Shown here piece after piece: positions 1,333 through 15,000 of a stretch of 44,064 nucleotides of DNA. The stretch lies in the NCBI GenBank assembly GCA_021732145.1, contig JAKFVN010000012.1:1-44064 (forward strand), given 5' to 3'. The notes beneath the pieces were generated by a model. The model ran no database searches. It was not told where the DNA came from and was given only the letters and a program-made list of their open reading frames with translations. Every line of letters begins with the position of its first letter. The first letter of the stretch is position 1. The position numbers were made by a program, and so were the translations under genes. This stretch comes from Alphaproteobacteria bacterium. GTDB taxonomy: Bacteria; Pseudomonadota; Alphaproteobacteria; UBA9219; RGZA01.

Positions 1333-2283
1333 ATGCCTGATTTCATGCCCGACCCTGCCGTCAATGCGAATGCCATTACCATTTCTGCCCTTTACAAAAC
1401 CTATGATAACGGATTTAAAGCCCTTGCTGGCATTGATCTGGAAATCAAGCGCGGTGAAATCTTTGCGCTGCTTGGCCCGAATGGCGCAGGCAAGACAACA
1501 TTGATTAACGCGGTATGCGGCATTGTGCAGCCAAGCAGCGGGCATATCCGCGTATGCGGGTACGATAATGCCGTGCAATACCGCGCCGCGCGTTCGGCGA
1601 TTGGCCTTGTGCCGCAGGAACTGACAACCGATGCGTTTGAATCCGTCTGGAACACGGTAAGCTTCAGCCGCGGATTATTCGGCAAGCCAAAAAACCCAGC
1701 TACTATCGAAAAAATCCTAAAAGACTTATCGCTGTGGGATAAGAAGGATGAACAAATCCGCAAATTGTCCGGCGGCATGAAGCGCCGCGTGATGATTGCC
1801 AAGGCATTATCGCATGAACCGCAAGTCCTGTTTCTGGATGAGCCAACGGCGGGCGTGGATGTTGAGCTGCGCAAATCCATGTGGGCGCAGGTGCGCGCGC
1901 TGCGCGAAACAGGCGTGACGGTTATTTTGACGACGCACTACATCGAAGAAGCGGAAGAAATGGCAGACCGCATCGGCGTGATTAACAAAGGCCAATTAGT
2001 TTTGACAGAAGAAAAAAACGCGCTGATGCAGAAAATGGGCAAGCGGCAAATGGTGTTCACGCTGCGTGATGCCATTCAAGCCATCCCGCCTGCGTTGTCT
2101 GCTTATGGCCTTGCGCTCGCTGAAAACGGTGCGAAGTTGATTTATACCTATAACACGCATCAGGCATCGCATGATGTGTCGGATATGATGGATGTATTGA
2201 AGGCGAATAATATCCGGCCCAAGGAAATTGACAGCCGCAGCAGCAGCCTTGAGGAAATTTTTATCGAATTGGTAGGTGCATAA
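1333..2283 (+). CDS. yadG: ABC transporter ATP-binding protein, YadG/ABC-2 type
   Basis: This 316-aa ATPase energises a two-component ABC-2 exporter. Its Walker A is GPNGAGKTT (residues 48-56), its signature motif LSGGMKRR (145-152) and its Walker [13 protein letters not shown] (165-176), followed by the switch His in [16 protein letters not shown]. The length and the ~100-residue C-terminal extension ending [14 protein letters not shown] fit the YadG group (E. coli YadG is 308 aa). The stop codon shares one base with the permease start, so the two are translationally coupled. The substrate of YadG/YadH is not established. The start at 1333 is the first ATG ahead of the conserved N-terminus. 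Confidence 0.85.
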
Positions 2284-3059
2284 TGAGTAATACGGCAATG
2301 AACTGGCGCGGCATTTGGGCAATTTATAATTTTGAAATGGGGCGCACCTGGCGCACGATTGGGCAAAGCATTGCATCGCCCGTGATTTCAACGGTATTGT
2401 ACTTCATCGTGTTTGGCGCGGCAATTGGCTCGCGCATTCAGGCAATTAATGACATTCCCTATGGTGCATTCATCGTTCCTGGCCTCGTGATGCTGACCAT
2501 TTTGGGGCAAAGCATTTCCAACGCGTCATTCGGCATTTATTTCCCGCGCTTCACGGGAACGATTTATGAAATCCTTTCCGCGCCATTATCCTATGTTGAA
2601 ATCATCATCGGTTATGTCGGCGCTGCTGCATCGAAATCAGTGCTCATTGGCGTGATTGTGCTGATTACGGCGGCGTTTTTTGTGCCCATGCGCATCATGC
2701 ACCCGTTCTGGATGCTGTTTTTCCTGGTGATGACCAGCATCACGTTCAGCTTAATGGGCTTTATTATTGGTATTTGGGCAGATGGATTTGAAAAACTGCA
2801 ACTCATACCGTTGCTTATCGTCACGCCGCTCACATTCCTTGGCGGAAGTTTCTATTCCATCAATATGTTACCGGAATTCTGGCGCGGCGTATCGATGTTA
2901 AACCCCGTTGTATATCTGGTAAGTGGTTTCCGCTGGAGTTTTTACGAGCATGGTGATGTCAGCCTTGCCACCAGCGTGATGATGATTACGGCGTTCACCA
3001 CTATTTCCATCGCCATCATCGCATGGATGTTCCGAACCGGTTACCGTTTACGTAAGTAA
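2283..3059 (+). CDS. yadH: ABC-2 type transporter permease, YadH-like
   Basis: This 258-aa inner-membrane permease is the partner of the ATPase immediately upstream. It has about six hydrophobic segments. The conserved ABC-2 membrane region is visible ([19 protein letters not shown] near residue 40, [17 protein letters not shown] near 65, and [22 protein letters not shown] at about 180-200). Length and order match YadH (256 aa). The one-base stop/start overlap with the upstream gene indicates a single transcript. Substrate unknown. Confidence 0.85.
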
Positions 3060-5978: not shown

Positions 5979-6005
5979 CGCTTTCAGGTTTTCATAAGTT
6001 ACAGG

Positions 6006-6037
6006 AAAAGCCTGGCCCGCTTTGGGCCAGGCTTTTT
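6006..6037. terminator. Bidirectional intrinsic terminator
   Basis: AAAAGCCTGGCCC and GGGCCAGGCTTTT form a 13-bp stem with a five-base loop, with A's on one side and T's on the other. It serves the convergent rcdA-like and substrate-binding-protein genes. Confidence 0.9.
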
Positions 6038-6042
6038 GCTAT

Positions 6043-6071
6043 TTATTCCAAGGTTGCTTATTCCAAGGTTG
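6043..6071. repeat. 15-bp tandem duplication over a stop codon
   Basis: TTATTCCAAGGTTG occurs twice with a 15-bp period. The duplicate repeats, in frame, the last codons and the stop of the minus-strand substrate-binding-protein gene, so the protein end is unchanged. Confidence 0.85.
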
Positions 6072-7029
6072 TTTTAATCAGTGTGCCGCGGATATCGACC
6101 GCATCATCTATGGCTTTCTGCTCGCGAAGGAAATCGGCAAAAGGCTGCATGATATTGACCGCTGATTCATCAAGCTTTGCGCCCCAGTTGTGCCGCCAGA
6201 ATGCCTTGCGGATAACTTCTATCGGCATGCTCATTTCATTGGCGGTGATGGTGATGGCGGTAATTTCGTTAAACGGTATCCATGCCTTTGCTTCATCGAC
6301 CACATTGATTAAATCGACAAAGGCTTTGGCTTTCTGCGCCTTGAACGCATCGCGCACCACCAGAATGCTGTAGGCTTTTGCCTCGCTTTTTGGCAATGCG
6401 CGCATGTAGCGGTTTAATTCGCCCAGCTCCGCATAGGGTGAATTGACCGCCCAGCCATCGACGCTGCCTTCTTTCATTGCGGCGATGCCTTCGCGCACGG
6501 GCATTTCAGTAATGGCATAGTCGTTCGGCGTAACGCCGACCACGCCCAGCATCTTGCGCAGATTATAATGGTTGCTGCTGTTCGTTTGCACAATCACCTT
6601 GCGGTTGCGCATTTCCTCAACCGTTTTAATGGTGCTGTCGGTGGGTATCATCAATTGTTCCTGATAGGTTGATGTTACCTGCGCGATGAATACGGGAAGT
6701 TTTTGCGCCTTTGCCAAAATCACCGGCACGATGTCGCTCTCAAACACCACATCAATCTGGTCATTCAAGAAGGCCATGTTGACTTCTTCGGGCGTTGAAA
6801 ACGTTGAATACTCTACCTTGTATCCGTACTCGGCAAAGGCCTCTTCGAATTTCTTGTTGTGCTTGGCAACATAAAACGGCGCATAGCTGACCGATTGGCC
6901 GACGCGCCCGATACGCACGGTGCGTAAATCCACCACCACGACTTCCGGTTTTGGCCAGAACACAGCCGTGCTAAGCCCGATAACGAGAGAAAGGCCACCT
7001 ATAACGACTGCTTTTTCAAGATTGTTCAT
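6058..7029 (-). CDS. ABC transporter substrate-binding protein, NMT1/TauA (SsuA) type
   Basis: The ~323-aa product has an N-terminal membrane segment or lipid-free signal (NLEKAVVIGGLSLVIGLSTAVFW). It then has the two-lobed periplasmic-binding fold typical of nitrate/taurine/sulfonate/thiamine-precursor binding proteins: VGQSVSYAPFYVAKHNKKFEE, NDQIDVVFESDIVPV and EGSVDGWAVNSPYAELGE. No cognate permease or ATPase lies nearby. I choose the ATG at 7029 because it puts the hydrophobic segment at the N-terminus. The frame stays open to a TTG at 7080, which would add 17 unusual residues. It is transcribed divergently from the Cys-rich cluster and shares its upstream region. Confidence 0.75.
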   Translation of the reverse strand: MNNLEKAVVIGGLSLVIGLSTAVFWPKPEVVVVDLRTVRIGRVGQSVSYAPFYVAKHNKKFEEAFAEYGYKVEYSTFSTPEEVNMAFLNDQIDVVFESDIVPVILAKAQKLPVFIAQVTSTYQEQLMIPTDSTIKTVEEMRNRKVIVQTNSSNHYNLRKMLGVVGVTPNDYAITEMPVREGIAAMKEGSVDGWAVNSPYAELGELNRYMRALPKSEAKAYSILVVRDAFKAQKAKAFVDLINVVDEAKAWIPFNEITAITITANEMSMPIEVIRKAFWRHNWGAKLDESAVNIMQPFADFLREQKAIDDAVDIRGTLIKTTLE

Positions 7030-7118
7030 CGGGGTTGCGGGGGTAGAGGTGTAATTAATGAAAATAATACATAGAAACAACAGCTTAGCAAAATTATAAT
7101 TTAAGCATGGATTAGGTG

Positions 7119-7147
7119 TTGCTATTAAGAATCGTTCTTACTAGAAC
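7119..7147 (+). promoter_or_regulatory. Probable sigma-70-type promoter for the 7207-10394 cluster
   Basis: TTGCTA (7119-7124) and TAGAAC (7142-7147) are separated by 17 bp; each matches the consensus at four of six positions. The first Fur-like dyad lies exactly in the spacer. Confidence 0.4.
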
Positions 7148-7169
7148 ATGACCTTAAGAATGACTCTTA
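7126..7169. promoter_or_regulatory. Two Fur-like 7-1-7 operator dyads
   Basis: Two sites have the same architecture: TAAGAAT-C-GTTCTTA (7126-7140) and TAAGAAT-G-ACTCTTA (7155-7169). Their centres are 29 bp apart. The four half-sites read TAAGAAT, TAAGAAC, TAAGAAT and TAAGAGT. The 7-1-7 design and sequence resemble the Fur-family box (TGAGAAT-N-ATTCTCA). The first lies between the putative -35 and -10, and the second near or just after the likely transcription start, which fits repression of the downstream cluster. The metal sensed cannot be told from sequence. Confidence 0.55.
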
Positions 7170-7206
7170 ATCGCATGAACACCCCATTGCCAGATAGGAT
7201 TTTGTA

Positions 7207-9618
7207 GTGAGACCGCGTAATTATTCAGTGTTATCAAAGGCCGAGGCAGAAGTTGATACCTCATATAATGATACAAGTGCCGAACTCGAATTTCTCCAAG
7301 AACTTGAAGATGCCATTGAAAGCATGGGCGCAAACCGCTTCACGGTGGATGGTCGCCCTGTAACGGTTGCTGCCGAAACCAGGGCAAAGCTGGGCAAAGC
7401 GATTAAAGAACTCACCCAAGTTCAAATCAATCAAATCGCCGATGGCGCAGAAAAATTCGGCAATAAAGACCAGCGCGTTTTGCTGGAAGTGGTGCAGGGG
7501 GAAGATAAGCCCGATGCGCAATTGAAGTTTCCGGATACCGATGTTACTGCCCAATACATTTATTATACCGAAGAACAAAAAGAAGATGCACGTTTGCTGA
7601 TGGAATTGAAGCGCATTCAATACCTGCAAAACGTTGTCATGAAGCAGTTGGAAATGACCGACCGCAGCGGTTCATCGCAAGTGGTGCAGGGCATGATTGC
7701 TGCTGGCCAGAAATTCGTGCAAGGCCTTACAGCGGTATTCAAGCAAGTTGAAACGCTTTCCAAGCAAATTGAAAAAGGCCTGCAAAACAAGGCCGACATG
7801 CCAACCGCGGAACAGAAAACTGCCGCGGTTGCGGCTATTACGCAAGCGTTGCGCGCATTGCCAGCGGTTGATCCGCGCCATATTGCAGTGAAGAATTTGG
7901 TGATGCAGCAGGTTGAGCGCTTGCAGGCAAAATTCAACATGGTGCCAGCCGCGCCGCGTGCTTCTGCAACCATTTTACAAATGAAAGCGCCAACCGCAGA
8001 CGCAACAAAAGGCGCAGCCCAACCAATGCGTGCTGAAACGCGCGCTGATGCTAAAACTGTACCGACAGCAAAAGGCGCGGATGCGGCAGTAAAAGGTAAT
8101 GATGCAAAGGTCGTAGCAACTGCCAAGACCGCGCCGCTCGCAAAGGTTGATGCGAAGGCTGCGCCAGTTGCGAAAGGCCAAACCGCAGAACTCCGCGTTG
8201 ATGCAAAGGGCCAACCGATTGCGCCGCTCGCAAAGGTTGATGCGAAGGCTGCGCCAGTTGCGAAAGGCCAAACCGCAGAACTCCGCGTTGATGCAAAGGG
8301 CCAACCGATTGCGCCGCTCGCAAAGGTTGATGCGCAAACTCAAACTCAAGTGAAGGGTACGCCCGTTGCCGTTCAACAAACCCGCGCGGATGCAGCGCAG
8401 CAAGTAAGGGGCGCAACCGTTACATCGATTACGCCAAATGTAACCGCGCAGCAGGCGATTGCCCGCGCAAGCACGGTGACATCACCTGTGCACACCATGC
8501 AGCAGTCGCTTGCCAATGCGCTGGGTATTACGCGGCCTGTAGCGGGCGTTGCGCAACCCGCGCCAGCGCAAATTGTAACTGCGCAAGTTCAGCACCAAGC
8601 GCAGCCGATTGCTCAACAGCAGGCGCAGCCACAACAATCTCAACCGCAAGCGCAGCAGGTTCAACCACAGCAGACGCAACAACAGGCACAGCCACAACAA
8701 AGCCAGCCGCAGGATCAAATTATTCAGCCTGTGCAACAGCAGCCACAACAAATCGAGCCGCAGCAAGTACAGCAACAGCCTGTACAACAGGTTGTGCACA
8801 TCAACCCGAATACAGGTGTGGCCAATCATGTTGAGCAGCCAATAAATATGCAGTCTATTGGGGCACAACAAACAGGCGCGCAAGTTACAGGCGCGCAGCC
8901 AATCGCGGTGCAACCGAATACAGTGCAACCTATTGTTACGCAGATAAGTGGGACACAGGTAAGCGGTACGCAAGTTGGTGGTACACAAGTTATCGGGGCA
9001 GCGCCCATTGTTGCTCCGCAGCAGGGCCAGCCGGTTGTCGCGCAAGTTGTTATTGATAATAAAGGTCAGCCGATTGTGGCTGATGCAGGTGTGAAGGGCG
9101 TTGAAGTGCGCTCCGTCCCTGCTGGCAGTGAAGCCCGCGCCGATACAACCATTGCCAAAGGCCAGCCAGCCGAAGCGCGTCAAACCGATAAATCACAGCC
9201 AGCGGAAGATAAGAAGGCTGACAACAAAGGCGTTGAAAACAAATTGCCTGAACGCCCAACTGAGCGCACCGAAGCAAAGGGCGGTGAACAGGAGATAAAA
9301 GAAAAGAAAGAGGTCAAGGTTGATGAAGGCCCATGCGGTGGTTGTGGCCGAAAGGGTATAGGATGCGGTACCTGTGGTATTACTGGAACGGTAAAAACCA
9401 ATTTAATTCCAAGCGACAAGAATGTTGATGAAGCGAAGAAAACATTTCCAGACAACGCAAACCCATGCACGAGCGGTAATTGTGGTGGTTGTAGAAAATG
9501 TGCCCGCGCTGACGCAGATCCTGCCGTAACAGCAAATGCAACCAAAGATGCGCAGGCAAAATATGGGCCGCGCCGCGCAGCAACCGTATCAGCGCCAGCG
9601 CCAGGAAAGGCAGCATAA
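7207..9618 (+). CDS. Large low-complexity protein with Cys-rich C-terminal zinc-finger-like region
   Basis: I do not recognise this 803-aa protein. Residues 1-260 appear folded and largely helical (for example KAIKELTQVQINQIADGAEKF). Residues ~260-700 are low complexity. They hold Ala/Lys repeats (30-aa units), a Gln/Pro-rich tract near 470-535, a run of short repeats of the type xGTQV or TGAQ, and a charged Lys/Glu linker. The C-terminus has two Cys clusters: CGGCGRKGIGCGTCG (C710, C713, C720, C723; two CxxC pairs reminiscent of the DnaJ zinc centre) and CTSGNCGGCRKC (C754, C759, C762, C765). There is no signal peptide. The start is a GTG with AGGA about eight bases upstream. It is the first gene of a tight cluster downstream of Fur-like dyads, so a metal-responsive role is inferred. 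Confidence 0.7.
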   Translation: MRPRNYSVLSKAEAEVDTSYNDTSAELEFLQELEDAIESMGANRFTVDGRPVTVAAETRAKLGKAIKELTQVQINQIADGAEKFGNKDQRVLLEVVQGEDKPDAQLKFPDTDVTAQYIYYTEEQKEDARLLMELKRIQYLQNVVMKQLEMTDRSGSSQVVQGMIAAGQKFVQGLTAVFKQVETLSKQIEKGLQNKADMPTAEQKTAAVAAITQALRALPAVDPRHIAVKNLVMQQVERLQAKFNMVPAAPRASATILQMKAPTADATKGAAQPMRAETRADAKTVPTAKGADAAVKGNDAKVVATAKTAPLAKVDAKAAPVAKGQTAELRVDAKGQPIAPLAKVDAKAAPVAKGQTAELRVDAKGQPIAPLAKVDAQTQTQVKGTPVAVQQTRADAAQQVRGATVTSITPNVTAQQAIARASTVTSPVHTMQQSLANALGITRPVAGVAQPAPAQIVTAQVQHQAQPIAQQQAQPQQSQPQAQQVQPQQTQQQAQPQQSQPQDQIIQPVQQQPQQIEPQQVQQQPVQQVVHINPNTGVANHVEQPINMQSIGAQQTGAQVTGAQPIAVQPNTVQPIVTQISGTQVSGTQVGGTQVIGAAPIVAPQQGQPVVAQVVIDNKGQPIVADAGVKGVEVRSVPAGSEARADTTIAKGQPAEARQTDKSQPAEDKKADNKGVENKLPERPTERTEAKGGEQEIKEKKEVKVDEGPCGGCGRKGIGCGTCGITGTVKTNLIPSDKNVDEAKKTFPDNANPCTSGNCGGCRKCARADADPAVTANATKDAQAKYGPRRAATVSAPAPGKAA
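8131..8334 (+). repeat. 90-bp tandem repeat (two full copies plus 24 bp)
   Basis: 8131-8220 and 8221-8310 are identical 90-bp units, followed by a 24-bp partial third copy. They encode 30-residue units starting APLAKVDAKAAPVAKG. Full identity at all codon positions implies a very recent duplication. Confidence 0.95.
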
Positions 9619-9619
9619 T

Positions 9620-9772
9620 ATGTGTGAAACAAATCGGGTGACGCAGGTCATGGAAAAAAGCAAAGAATGTTCGGGTGATTGCGATAACTGCGAGCGTAAG
9701 CAGACGCAATTAACTGGCATGCAGGAACAGGTTGCCCTGATTTTGCAGCAACTTAATCAAACCGCCAAATAG
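9620..9772 (+). CDS. Small 50-aa cysteine-motif protein
   Basis: The ATG at 9620 lies one base after the stop of the 803-aa gene, so translation is probably coupled. The product begins MCETNRVTQVMEKSKE and has CSGDCDNC near residue 17, then a helical Gln-rich tail (QEQVALILQQLNQ). SGDCDNC resembles SGNCGGC in the C-terminal Cys cluster of the upstream protein, suggesting a shared metal-binding design. No known family is recognised. Confidence 0.6.
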   Translation: MCETNRVTQVMEKSKECSGDCDNCERKQTQLTGMQEQVALILQQLNQTAK

Positions 9773-9812
9773 CGGCGCAGTATTTTTAACTTCATTTTTT
9801 AAGGAGAGTATA

Positions 9813-10394
9813 ATGGTACAATTGAATATCAATAATGGTGCATCCGGAATGCCTTCACCAGACGGCACGCTGGGCTTGACCGATTGCGGTACATGCGCAA
9901 CCCACGTTTCAGATTGCATCACAGGTATTTTGGGACAAGCTGTTTTGTCTGCGCTGGAAATCACGCGCAACGCATTTGCAAATAAAGAAGCACAGCTTGA
10001 CCCGCACAATCCGGAAGATGTTGATTACCTTTATAACATCGTCAGCGATGTGGTTGCATCGCGTCCTGAATTGAAAGTGGCAATGCCAACCGATCCTGCT
10101 GAAATTGCAAAGGTGAAGGCACGTATCCCTGAAGCAATCCGCGAAGGGCAGGCGGTATATGCCGCAGTTGGCATTATTGCTACGCGCTTGCAGGCATCAC
10201 CTGGCGCTAAACCCGCTTCGCTTATCAACCCAACCAATGCCGGCGATTTGGATGCTGTGTTTGGAAAAGTGGTTGAAACCTTCAAGGGCGAATTGCCGCG
10301 CTTGGTATCTGATGCAGAAGAAATTAAAGCTTACAGAAGCCGCATGGGTTCTGCGGTTGTTACCGCAATCCGCGCGATGCCAAATCCTGCATAA
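9813..10394 (+). CDS. Conserved-looking hypothetical protein of the Cys cluster
   Basis: The 193-aa product is predicted mainly helical. An N-terminal CGTCATHVSDC (C25, C28, C35) is its only cysteine motif; the remainder has amphipathic helices such as ALEITRNAFANKEAQLD and RLVSDAEEIKAYRSRMGSAVV. AAGGAGA lies five to six bases before the ATG, a strong ribosome-binding site. It is 40 bp downstream of the 50-aa gene and is followed by a strong terminator, so it ends the cluster. Function unknown. Confidence 0.7.
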   Translation: MVQLNINNGASGMPSPDGTLGLTDCGTCATHVSDCITGILGQAVLSALEITRNAFANKEAQLDPHNPEDVDYLYNIVSDVVASRPELKVAMPTDPAEIAKVKARIPEAIREGQAVYAAVGIIATRLQASPGAKPASLINPTNAGDLDAVFGKVVETFKGELPRLVSDAEEIKAYRSRMGSAVVTAIRAMPNPA

Positions 10395-10414
10395 TCTGGT
10401 TTGGATAAGACATT

Positions 10415-10448
10415 AAAAAACCCGCTTCATCACTGAAGCGGGTTTTTT
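10415..10448. terminator. Bidirectional intrinsic terminator
   Basis: AAAAAACCCGCTTCA pairs with TGAAGCGGGTTTTTT over a TCAC loop. It ends the 7207-10394 cluster and, on the other strand, rpmE. Confidence 0.95.
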
Positions 10449-10509
10449 TAATTCTATACTTATTAGAGCGATGCCTCTGCGGTTCCCGCAACCGGCCCTG
10501 CTTTCATAA

Positions 10510-10821
10510 TTACTTTTTCTTCTTTGCGTCTGGCTTGTCGCTGGCTTTCTTTTCAGCCTTGTTCGCGCTGCCAGTTACCTTTTCGCCTTCCTTGTGGCCC
10601 TTAACATCCACGATGCCAGCAAAACGGTTTTTGAACTTATCGAGCTGACCGCCGCGGCCAATCAACTTGGAAATACCAGTCCAAGCCGGGTGGGTCTTCG
10701 GGTCGATGTCGAGGCGCATGGTATCGCCAGCCTTACCCCAGGTGGTGCGTGTTTCAAACTCGCTGCCATCGGTCATAATGACCTTGATGGTGTGATAATC
10801 GGGGTGAATTTTTTCTTTCAT
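10510..10821 (-). CDS. rpmE: 50S ribosomal protein L31
   Basis: The 103-aa L31 begins [20 protein letters not shown] and has the family core ([25 protein letters not shown]). The cysteines of the zinc-binding form are absent, so it is a C-minus type that does not need zinc. A Lys/Asp/Ala-rich tail of about 30 residues lengthens it beyond the usual ~70, as in many alphaproteobacteria. AAGGA precedes the ATG. It is a single gene. Confidence 0.95.
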
Positions 10822-10974
10822 AGCTTATTCCTTAGTATTGCAAGCGGCGGTTATAGACAGCCAAACCATGCAACGCAAGGGGTTTTCGCGGTTAAACAAT
10901 TAATTCTATTCGCCCGTCAAACGATGTTAAAATGATGCTTATCATTCAATGATATGAGTGTTAAAGAATGTGGC

Positions 10975-11331
10975 ATGAATTTTTTAAGATTTAGAGCAGC
11001 GCAGTTTTTTGCAGATCTTGCCCTTGTAGGCGGGCTGGTGATTACCATGCCCATTCCGCCTGCACATGGCCAGCAATCGCAACCAACCAAGAACCCATCT
11101 GCTTTGGCGCGGGTTTGCGCGGATGAATTAAAGGCAGGAATTGCACAAAAGTACCATTATATTGGGGGTTCGCGGGGGTATAACGTGCTAACCACTAACC
11201 CAAAGACCGATTTATTTGAGCCTTGCCGCTTCGATTTCGAAGGAAATATGACGGAAGGCGCAGCGGGACGCCCATCATGCAGCATTGGCAAGCGCATTGC
11301 CGCCTGTTTAAAGCAAAAACTGCAATCATAA
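10975..11331 (+). CDS. Small secreted four-cysteine protein, copy 1
   Basis: Small exported protein of about 118 aa (125 if the ATG at 10954 is used). The N-terminal signal peptide (FFADLALVGGLVITMPIPPAHG) has a likely cleavage after AHG. The mature part holds four cysteines spaced C-x35-C-x17-C-x8-C, with GRPSC before the last pair. The next gene has the same pattern, so these are probable tandem paralogues of a small periplasmic or secreted family stabilised by disulfides. I do not recognise the family. The ATG at 10975 gives a more typical signal peptide than the upstream one. Confidence 0.6.
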   Translation: MNFLRFRAAQFFADLALVGGLVITMPIPPAHGQQSQPTKNPSALARVCADELKAGIAQKYHYIGGSRGYNVLTTNPKTDLFEPCRFDFEGNMTEGAAGRPSCSIGKRIAACLKQKLQS

Positions 11332-11421
11332 CGACCCAAATCATAACGATTAAGAAAATATTTTTATTTTCAGGCGATAGCGCTTAAAACTACGCTCACT
11401 TCTATATTTTCAAGGTGATTT

Positions 11422-11799
11422 ATGACGCGTCCGATTATGGCATATGCTGCATTAGCAGGGTTAGGTGCAGGATTAGCCATGCCAGTGCAAGCGCAAGAAA
11501 GAAGCCCCGTTATTGAACAACTGATGCGTGTTATGAAATTGAGAGAATGCGCCAAAAAAGCAGGCGAGCAATTGAATACCACGGTTGATTTGATGGGAAA
11601 TGGCACAAAAGTTGGCGTTATTGTACCTGCGCCCGCCCCGCATACCGGAAAATTTGATGGCTGCGTTATTCACGAAGATGGCAGTTTAACCGATACAAAA
11701 GGCCGCGCGCCCATACCCGGCAGGCCAGCCTGCGCCGTTGCCGACTTAATTAAAAAGTGCATGGCAGGCGAAGAGCCAGCGCCCGTGCCCGGAAGTTAA
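11422..11799 (+). CDS. Small secreted four-cysteine protein, copy 2
   Basis: This 125-aa protein has a classical signal peptide (MAYAALAGLGAGLAMPVQAQ, cleavage after VQA). The mature domain has four cysteines spaced C-x37-C-x22-C-x8-C with GRPAC before the last pair, which closely matches the preceding gene. It lies 90 bp downstream of copy 1 on the same strand. Function unknown. Confidence 0.65.
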   Translation: MTRPIMAYAALAGLGAGLAMPVQAQERSPVIEQLMRVMKLRECAKKAGEQLNTTVDLMGNGTKVGVIVPAPAPHTGKFDGCVIHEDGSLTDTKGRAPIPGRPACAVADLIKKCMAGEEPAPVPGS

Positions 11800-12056
11800 T
11801 AAGACTTGAAGCCCTGCCTTTGCGGCTTATGTGGCGGTGGCATTAAAAAACTGTAAATTCTGCTTGCATGACCCACTAAAATATGGTGATTCACGCCTCG
11901 TGCACACTTGCTGACAATAAAGATACCCGATAACACGCATCACTGATCAAAGGTGATAGGCCGCGTGCCCAGCTTTTTTTGCTCTGGGGTTGTTTTCGCT
12001 TTTTGTCTCTTTTGCAATTGCGCCGCGCAAACACTTTTGACCCTTAAGGGAATGAC
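11800..12056 (+). promoter_or_regulatory. Leader region of rpoBC
   Basis: In most bacteria rpoB follows rplL directly. Here it is preceded by unrelated genes, so its promoter must lie in this 257-bp spacer. A possible TTGCTG/GATAAC pair (11908-11934) has only 15-bp spacing and is weak. A hairpin ATCAC/GTGAT (about 11939-11957) precedes a T-run near 11975 that could act as an attenuator. AAGGGA lies before the rpoB start. Confidence 0.4.
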
Positions 12057-15000
12057 ATGGCCACGATTCTAAAAACAAAAGAAATTCTCCCAGATACAAA
12101 CAGCTTCACCGGACGCCAGCGCATCCGCAAGAGTTTTGGTCGCATCAGTGAAGTGGTGTCGATGCCAAATCTCATCGAAGTGCAACGCCAATCCTATGAA
12201 GCATTCTTGCAGATGGGCACACCTGCAACTGGCCGCACCGTTACCGGTCTTCAAGAAGTTTTCAAATCCGTTTTCCCGATTAAAGATTTTGCAGAGCGCG
12301 CTGTTCTTGATTTCGTTTCCTACGAATTGGAAGAACCAAAATACGACGTTGAAGAATGCCAGCAACGCGGCATGACCTTTGCCGCGCCATTGCGCGTAAC
12401 CCTTCGTTTGTCGGTGTTTGACGTGGATGAAACCACGGGCCTGCGCTCCATCCGCGACATCAAGGAACAAGATGTTTACATGGGCGATATGCCATTGATG
12501 ACCAATAACGGTACGTTTGTTATCAACGGAACCGAACGCGTTATCGTATCCCAGATGCACCGTTCACCGGGCGTATTCTTTGACCATGACAATGGCAAGA
12601 CCCACGCATCCGGCAAATTCCTGTTTGCTGCGCGCGTCATTCCTTACCGCGGTTCATGGCTCGACTTCGAATTCGATGCGAAGGATATTTTGTATGTTCG
12701 TATCGACCGTCGCCGCAAACTGCCAGTAACCACGTTGATGTATGCGTTGGACGACGAAGCAACTGAAAAGATGCGCGCGAAACGCGATGCACAGGAAAAG
12801 CCATTAGCTCCTGGTGAAGCCATTGGCATGAGCAAGGAAGAGATTCTTTCCTCCATCTACGAAACCAAGACCTATGACCGCACCAAGACCGGTTGGAAGA
12901 CCCGCTACATCGCAGAAAACTGGCGCGGCGTGAAGCTGACCCATGACCTTATCAACGCCAAGGGCGGTGAAGTGGTGATGGAAGCCGGCGCGAAGATTAC
13001 CGCGCGCAAGGCAAAGCAACTGGAAGAAGAAGGTCTGCGTGAAATTCTCATCCAGTCCGAGCAATTGATGGGCCAATACCTTGCTCAAGACGTAATTGAT
13101 GCCAAGACCGGCCTCGTGCTGCATGAAGCGGGTGATGAAATCACCAAGGACATGCTCGACAACTTTGCTGAACTGAACACGAAGGAAATTCCTGTTCTGG
13201 CGATTGACCACGTAAACGTTGGCCCATACCTTCGTTCAACGATGATGGTTGACCGCAACTCCACCCGTGAAGAAGCGCTGATCGACATCTACCGCGTGAT
13301 GCGTCCGGGTGAACCACCAACCCTGGAATCCGCTGAAGCATTGTTCCGCGGATTGTTCTTTGATCTGGAACGCTATGACTTGTCACCAGTGGGCCGCGTA
13401 AAAATCAATGGCCGCTTGAATGTTCAAGCTGCAGACACGGTACGTGTACTGCGCAAGGCTGACATCATTTCCATCATCAAGATTTTGCACGACCTGAAAG
13501 ATGGTCGCGGCGAAGTGGATGATATCGATCACTTGGGTAACCGCCGTGTTCGCTCGGTGGGTGAACTCATGGAAAACCAATACCGCGTTGGCTTGCTGCG
13601 CATGGAACGCGCCATCAAGGAACGCATGGGTTCGGTTGAAATCGACACCGTGATGCCATCTGACCTTGTGAACGCAAAGCCTGCGGCTGCTGCGGTTCGT
13701 GAATTCTTTGGTTCATCCCAGCTTTCACAATTTATGGATCAAACCAATCCACTTTCCGAAATTACCCATAAGCGCCGTTTATCAGCGTTGGGCCCCGGTG
13801 GTTTGACACGTGAACGCGCAGGCTTTGAAGTACGCGACGTTCATCCAACCCATTATGGCCGTATCTGCCCGATTGAAACACCGGAAGGCCCGAATATCGG
13901 TCTGATCAACTCGCTCGCAACCTACGCACAGGTCAATCCATACGGCTTTATCGAAACGCCATATCGCCGCGTTTCAAAGAGCAAGGTGATGGACGAAGTT
14001 GTGTATATGAGCGCGATGGAAGAAGGTCAGCATGTGGTGGCGCAAGCCAACGCTGCGCTCGACGCGTCGGGTAAGCTAACAGCGGAACTCGTCTCCTGCC
14101 GTAAGGGCGGTGAGTACATGATGCTCCCACCAGACCAAATCGAATACATCGACGTAAGCCCTAAGCAGCTCGTTTCCGTTGCTGCGGCGCTTATTCCATT
14201 CCTTGAAAACGATGACGCGAACCGCGCGCTCATGGGCTCCAACATGCAACGTCAGGCTGTGCCGTTGTTGCAATCGGATGCTCCGCTCGTTGGTACAGGT
14301 ATGGAAGGCACGGTTGCACGCGATAGCGGCGTGACCGTTGTTGCAAAACGCGCAGGTATCGTTGACCAGGTTGACGCAACCCGCGTGGTTGTTCGTGTGA
14401 ACGATGAAAAGGCCACCAAGAATAGCGGCCTTGGCGTTGATATTTACAATCTTCTCAAGTTCCAACGTTCCAACCAAAACACCTGCATTACGCAGCGCCC
14501 ATTGGTGCGCGTAGGCGATGTGGTGAAGGCGGGCGATATCATCGCTGACGGCCCATCCACCCAGCTTGGTGAATTGGCGCTTGGCCGTAACGTGCTCGTC
14601 GCGTTCATGCCATGGAATGGTTACAACTTCGAAGATAGTATTCTGATTTCCGAACGTATTGTGCGCGATGACGTATTCACATCTATTCACATCGAAGAAT
14701 TCGAAGTGATGGCACGTGATACCAAGCTCGGTCAGGAAGAAATCACGAGAGATATTCCAAACGTGGGCGAAGAAGCACTTAAGAACCTCGATGAAGCAGG
14801 TATTGTTTACATCGGCGCAGAAGTGAACCCAGGTGACATTTTGGTAGGTAAAGTCACACCGAAAGGTGAATCACCTATGACGCCGGAAGAAAAATTGCTG
14901 CGCGCCATTTTCGGTGAAAAGTCAGCTGACGTTCGCGATAGCTCTTTGAAGGTTCCACCAGGTGTATCTGGAACAATCGTGGAAGTGCGCGTGTTTAATC

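Follow-up and report, generated by a model that had tools for sequence, protein, structure and literature searches.

A conserved three-gene unit of undescribed cysteine-rich proteins behind two Fur-like dyads in a genus of Alphaproteobacteria

What purpose might be served by three adjacent genes that match no described family, encode proteins with conserved cysteines and stand directly behind a pair of Fur-like dyads? The question is raised by a locus in a 44,064-nucleotide stretch of alphaproteobacterial DNA (contig JAKFVN010000012.1 of assembly GCA_021732145.1), hereafter called the window. We find that the three genes form one real, conserved and undescribed unit, which probably serves to manage metal that is in short supply within the cell. 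The window's own genome (G000, 2.09 Mb) was compared with those of two congeners (G003 and G004), the three making up the genus as considered here, and with the remainder of a family of five genomes that includes a sister genus (G002).

A conserved unit of three selected proteins

An earlier note on this DNA had described three consecutive open reading frames (ORFs), of 803, 50 and 193 amino acids, that end at a strong terminator, and all of these are present as it described them (Table 1). The gene-neighborhood comparison that it proposed also favors a single unit: the three genes lie together and in the same place in G000, G003 and G004 alike, in the order rcdA, a divergent gene for an SsuA-like substrate-binding protein, genes 1 to 3, terminator and convergent rpmE, and a terminator is found at this place in G003 and G004 as well. 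Between G000 and G004, the ratio of nonsynonymous to synonymous substitution rates (dN/dS) in gene 1 is 0.12 for the N-terminal 256 amino acids, 0.30 for the linker and 0.35 for the Cys tail, and it is 0.16 for the 50-residue protein and 0.26 for the 193-residue protein. With dN/dS at 0.12–0.35 throughout, all three ORFs are real proteins under purifying selection, the tail and linker of the large protein included.

The earlier note could match none of the three proteins to a described family, and profile and sequence library searches agree. Pfam, NCBIfam, PHROGs, PADLOC and the PDB sequences returned at most coiled-coil noise; scans of viral contigs, of plasmids and of a genome contig collection (the last with the third protein and the N-terminal profile of the large one) gave no match, and Rfam had none in window positions 6000–12100. 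A Foldseek search with an alignment-free, low-confidence model of the 193-residue protein found nothing below E 2.

The large protein has the helical N-terminus, the low-complexity tracts and the two C-terminal Cys clusters that had been noted. An alpha/beta-helical domain (approximately residues 1–250) is followed by an Ala/Lys and then a Gln/Pro low-complexity linker, in which a perfect tandem repeat marks a very recent duplication, and finally by the Cys tail. In each of the three species the protein has eight cysteines in total, every one of them in the tail. The N-terminal domain occurs in four of the five family genomes, across two genera; elsewhere in the order its profile gave a single partial match (E 1e-4) and no further genome with the domain. 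Matches outside the family, in a profile search of the order and of a class sample, were weak and partial (E 1e-4 to 1e-2) and were taken as chance helical matches.

The two smaller proteins show the same retention of cysteines. Orthologues of the 50-residue protein in G004 and G003 keep all four; its C-terminal half is conserved in G004, and the comparison with the distant congener G003 leaves the initial MC and the motif CSGDCxxC and little else. The 193-residue protein has only 22% identity to its G003 orthologue, yet C25, C28 and C35 are invariant in the three species, which bears out the CxxC motif (CGTC) and further cysteine reported for it. The cysteines are thus the parts that are retained while the remainder of the proteins diverges. 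The SGxCxxC motif that had been thought to link the large and small proteins fares less well: it is present in the large protein of G000 (SGNCGGC) and lost from its orthologues, the small protein alone keeping CSGDCxxC.

A conserved promoter and its candidate repressor

The two 7-1-7 dyads that had been placed at the start of the operon, the first of them between the −35 and −10 subsequences, are indeed there and are kept in three species. The aligned promoters of G000, G003 and G004 share one layout: TTG(C/A)TA is followed by dyad 1, which fills the 17-nt spacer, then by a −10 subsequence (TATAAC in G004) and lastly by dyad 2, at whose position both congeners read TAATAATCATTCTTA; the G004 promoter has a third dyad. 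A simple consensus promoter scan did not list this core promoter. In 20,000 dinucleotide shuffles of the AT-rich 178-bp intergenic region, one 7-1-7 dyad with at most one mismatched pair arose in 28% of runs and two non-overlapping ones in 3.3%, and two that were also mutually alike (12 of 15 letters) arose in none. The dyads are, moreover, the only zero-mismatch sites for the pattern TAAGAATNRYTCTTA in the whole G000 genome.

The identical 15-mer TAATAATCATTCTTA occupies the 17-nt spacer of a second, unlinked promoter (TTGCAA-17-TATAGT) in each of the three genomes. The 59-residue ORF behind it (MKIERLIGPKQ...; G000:C14:37756-37992, G003:C240 and G004:C21) is 83–88% conserved, belongs to no known family and stands alone. 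Sites of similar score to a relaxed form of the motif were considered as further regulon members and rejected; those examined lay mostly inside coding frames.

To judge from sequence, the operon is likely to be under Fur-family control, and the candidate repressor would be a Fur/Mur-type protein of 138 amino acids (G000:C20:1314-1673, E 1.1e-37) with orthologues in all five family genomes. In G003 it is the sole Fur-family protein. The Zur of G000 (G000:C39:13796-14035) is without the first ~65–70 residues, the DNA-binding part, of the 157-residue Zur of G004 (L074:1276-1749), and G003 gave no Zur match, although ZnuA-type genes are present; within the genus, zur seems to be undergoing decay. 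Because Zur is absent from G003 and truncated in G000, the Fur/Mur protein is the one Fur-family regulator common to the three species. Irr, considered on a likeness to the iron control element motif (TTTAGAA-N3-TTCTAAA), was rejected because only Fur/Mur- and Zur-type members were found here.

Table 1. Positions in the window of the features of the three-gene unit
Feature	Position	Strand	Description
Core promoter	7118-7147	+	−35 TTGCTA at 7118-7123, 17-nt spacer, −10 TAGAAC at about 7141-7147
Operator-like dyad 1, TAAGAATCGTTCTTA	7126-7140	.	7-1-7, 6/7 pairs; inside −35/−10 spacer
Operator-like dyad 2, TAAGAATGACTCTTA	7155-7169	.	7-1-7, 6/7 pairs; at or after predicted transcription start
Gene 1	7207-9618	+	GTG start; 803 residues; N-terminal domain, linker, Cys tail
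Tandem repeat in gene 1 linker	8131-8334	+	Perfect 90-bp unit, 2.3 copies
Cys cluster 1, CGGCGRKGIGCGTC	9334-9375	+	CX2CX6CX2C, residues 710-723; spacing identical in three species
Cys cluster 2, CTSGNCGGCRKC	9466-9501	+	CX4CX2CX2C, residues 754-765; four Cys in three species
Gene 2	9620-9772	+	50 residues; MC...CSGDCDNC
Gene 3	9813-10394	+	193 residues, mainly helical; CGTC plus third Cys
Intrinsic terminator	10415-10448	+	Symmetrical, shared with convergent rpmE; −21.3 kcal/mol, z −7.7

A proposed role in metal allocation

We propose, as a tentative reading to which we give somewhat less than an even chance, that the operon encodes a cytosolic, thiolate-based metal-allocation system that is repressed by a Fur-family protein and derepressed when metal is scarce. 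With metal plentiful, a Fur-family protein, most likely the single Fur/Mur type, would bind the two dyads over the core promoter and repress transcription; with metal scarce (most likely iron, possibly manganese) the three genes would be derepressed. The products would be cytosolic, and the large protein would serve as a modular scaffold in which a lineage-specific N-terminal domain is joined through a long disordered linker to a tail with two four-Cys sites. Its tail, together with the 50-residue (four Cys) and 193-residue (three Cys) proteins, could bind a thiophilic metal or an Fe-S cluster, and the three proteins may then act during starvation as a chaperone or allocation (buffer-and-deliver) system that passes the metal on. 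Delivery or re-allocation is preferred here because one would expect excess metal, and not a derepressed starvation box, to switch on a store. The identity of the repressor, the metal, its binding and the allocation role are what we infer; a cytosolic location and the passing on of metal are suggested by the anatomy of the proteins, in none of which did hydropathy reveal a signal peptide or membrane segment.

The earlier note had also argued for one metal-responsive system. Its shared-motif argument falls away, the SGxCxxC link being specific to G000. The idea of metal control nevertheless gains strength from the conservation of the three-gene unit and of its Fur-family-type operator, from the recurrence of that operator at another conserved promoter and from the other metal-type controls of two homologues, which are described below.

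The nearest described systems are the Fur-repressed iron-starvation operons of basal Alphaproteobacteria such as Caulobacter crescentus, in which Fur/Mur is the iron regulator (PMC3751524). These share with the window operon a Fur/Mur-type regulator and AT-rich 7-1-7 dyads over the core promoter, and their regulons also contain genes for unknown proteins; they differ in that the window proteins match no described family, the box departs from the Escherichia coli consensus and is not known to be shared here by any iron transporter. Bacterial metallothioneins and other Cys-rich metal buffers resemble the unit in their dense Cys tails and small Cys proteins, but no Pfam or NCBIfam profile matches, and here two compact Cys clusters end a large modular protein. 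The FeoB-associated Cys-rich protein family (PF12669) gives a weak match to the Cys motif of the 50-residue protein (E 0.12), though at 13.1 bits against a cut-off of 27, with no membrane helix and no FeoA found in the genus.

Homologues of the large protein stand behind other putative metal-type controls. In the sister genus (G002) the homologue has CXCX2C tails and lies behind two Zur-like boxes that score 13/14 and 12/14 against the Zur consensus; among 5,000 shuffles a best score of at least 13 occurred in 0.02% and two scores of at least 12 in none. A paralogue in G004 (G004:C7) has CX3-4CXC tails and lies directly 3' of a DUF2946 ORF (PF11162, E 8.8e-7; ending ...SPRAPPAYT). A dyad 5' of that ORF was considered as an operator and is read instead as the terminator of an upstream tRNA. 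DUF2946 ORFs of the CruR type are copper-responsive leader ORFs in Bordetella (PMC9426467), and the paralogue resembles those operons in following directly on an ORF with the C-terminal RAPP; the window operon, unlike them, has no such leader. Three homologues with three metal-type controls and three tail types are, from so few genomes, suggestive only. It is conceivable, although we consider it doubtful, that they represent a new family of metal-handling scaffolds in which an N-terminal domain and linker carry an exchangeable Cys tail, with copies under separate metal controls and tail geometry following the metal. Fur-type dyads would then go with CX2CX6CX2C in the window genus, Zur boxes with CXCX2C in the sister genus and the DUF2946 leader with CX3-4CXC in the paralogue.

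Several observations weigh against the allocation proposal or the homologue comparisons that favor it. Agreement of the dyads with the E. coli Fur consensus extends to only 9–11 of 14 positions and is about equal for the Bacillus subtilis PerR consensus, and across the genome the relaxed motif shows no clear enrichment over the control. The box was found at no iron-transport gene; FeoA, sought as a Fur-box anchor, is absent in the genus, and the sole TonB-receptor match, in G000 as in G003, belongs to a copper-type operon. The regulator comparison covered the Fur family. The spacing of Cys cluster 2 differs between the three species, and AlphaFold models made without alignments are poor (predicted local distance difference test scores, pLDDT, of 48–51). 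Lastly, the DUF2946 leaders carry CPF(G/A) in place of the copper-sensing CXXC motif, that of G004:C7 reading CPFG. The copper-type operon itself (L048, L047) comprises a DUF2946-like ORF with the RAPP end, a YcnI-like gene and the TonB receptor, and is of CruR type with the same replacement of CXXC.

Alternative readings

Since the relaxed motif has no clear genome-wide enrichment, the dyads are on present evidence a two-target operator, and a dedicated non-Fur repressor with two targets could produce the same picture. It would act on the operon and the 59-residue gene only and respond to a signal other than metal, for example redox, with the cysteines as thiol switches. Each genome yielded just two conserved promoter targets, the Cys pairs could form disulfides and PerR-type sites are as near as Fur-type ones; against this, the placing of AT-rich 7-1-7 dyads in a promoter spacer follows the plan of the Fur family, and other metal-type controls accompany the homologues. 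We regard such a repressor as unlikely.

A zinc-starvation unit of the Zur type, with the Cys tail as a zinc chaperone or reserve and the dyads as a drifted Zur box read by another Fur-family protein, appears distinctly unlikely. Four-Cys sites suit zinc, the G002 homologue has CXCX2C tails, and the Zur-like boxes before it are of the type that also lies between zur and znuA in that genome. The dyads of the window genus, however, are unlike the Zur box (4–5 of 14 positions) and differ from those of a Zur regulon, and they persist in G003, where zur is absent, and in G000, where it is truncated.

Long low-complexity linkers with tandem repeats are common in surface and secreted proteins, and the extended linker with its recent repeats would fit an exported protein, either for attachment or as an extracellular metal scavenger, whose Cys tails lie outside the cell as disulfide or metal sites. 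We hold this to be improbable, as neither a signal peptide nor a membrane segment nor a secretion gene is present in the unit, and both the reduced sites of CXXC type and the conserved partners are in keeping with a cytosolic location. That the small, Cys-rich and operator-controlled gene 2 encodes the metallophore precursor of a cluster for a ribosomally synthesized and post-translationally modified peptide (RiPP) deserves hardly any credence, given that neither a modifying enzyme nor a transporter belongs to the unit (genes for an ABC-2 exporter lie upstream, at 1333–3059, and are separate), that no MNIO or other RiPP-modifying enzyme was found when the proteins encoded in the window around the unit were scanned, the rest of the genome not having been searched, and that the C-terminal half conserved in G004 has no core-peptide repeats.

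Among the neighbors of the unit, the divergent SsuA/NMT1-like binding protein (6058–7080) has no adjoining permease and keeps its position across G000, G003 and G004. On the far side, two adjacent genes (10954–11331 and 11422–11799) each encode a protein of 125 amino acids with a signal-peptide-like start, several cysteines and no Pfam or NCBIfam match, and a palindrome, AATGATGCTTATCATT, lies near 10931 just 5' of the pair.

In model bacteria the regulons of the Fur family have been mapped well; the genomes of the genus described here lack FeoA and show no more than one TonB receptor each. An operon for orphan Cys proteins, conserved and placed behind a Fur-type operator, offers a direct and testable entry to how this genus meets metal scarcity. 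If the homologues of the large protein respond to iron, zinc and copper by way of different controls, a single scaffold would have been re-used for several metals, with the tail as its variable part.

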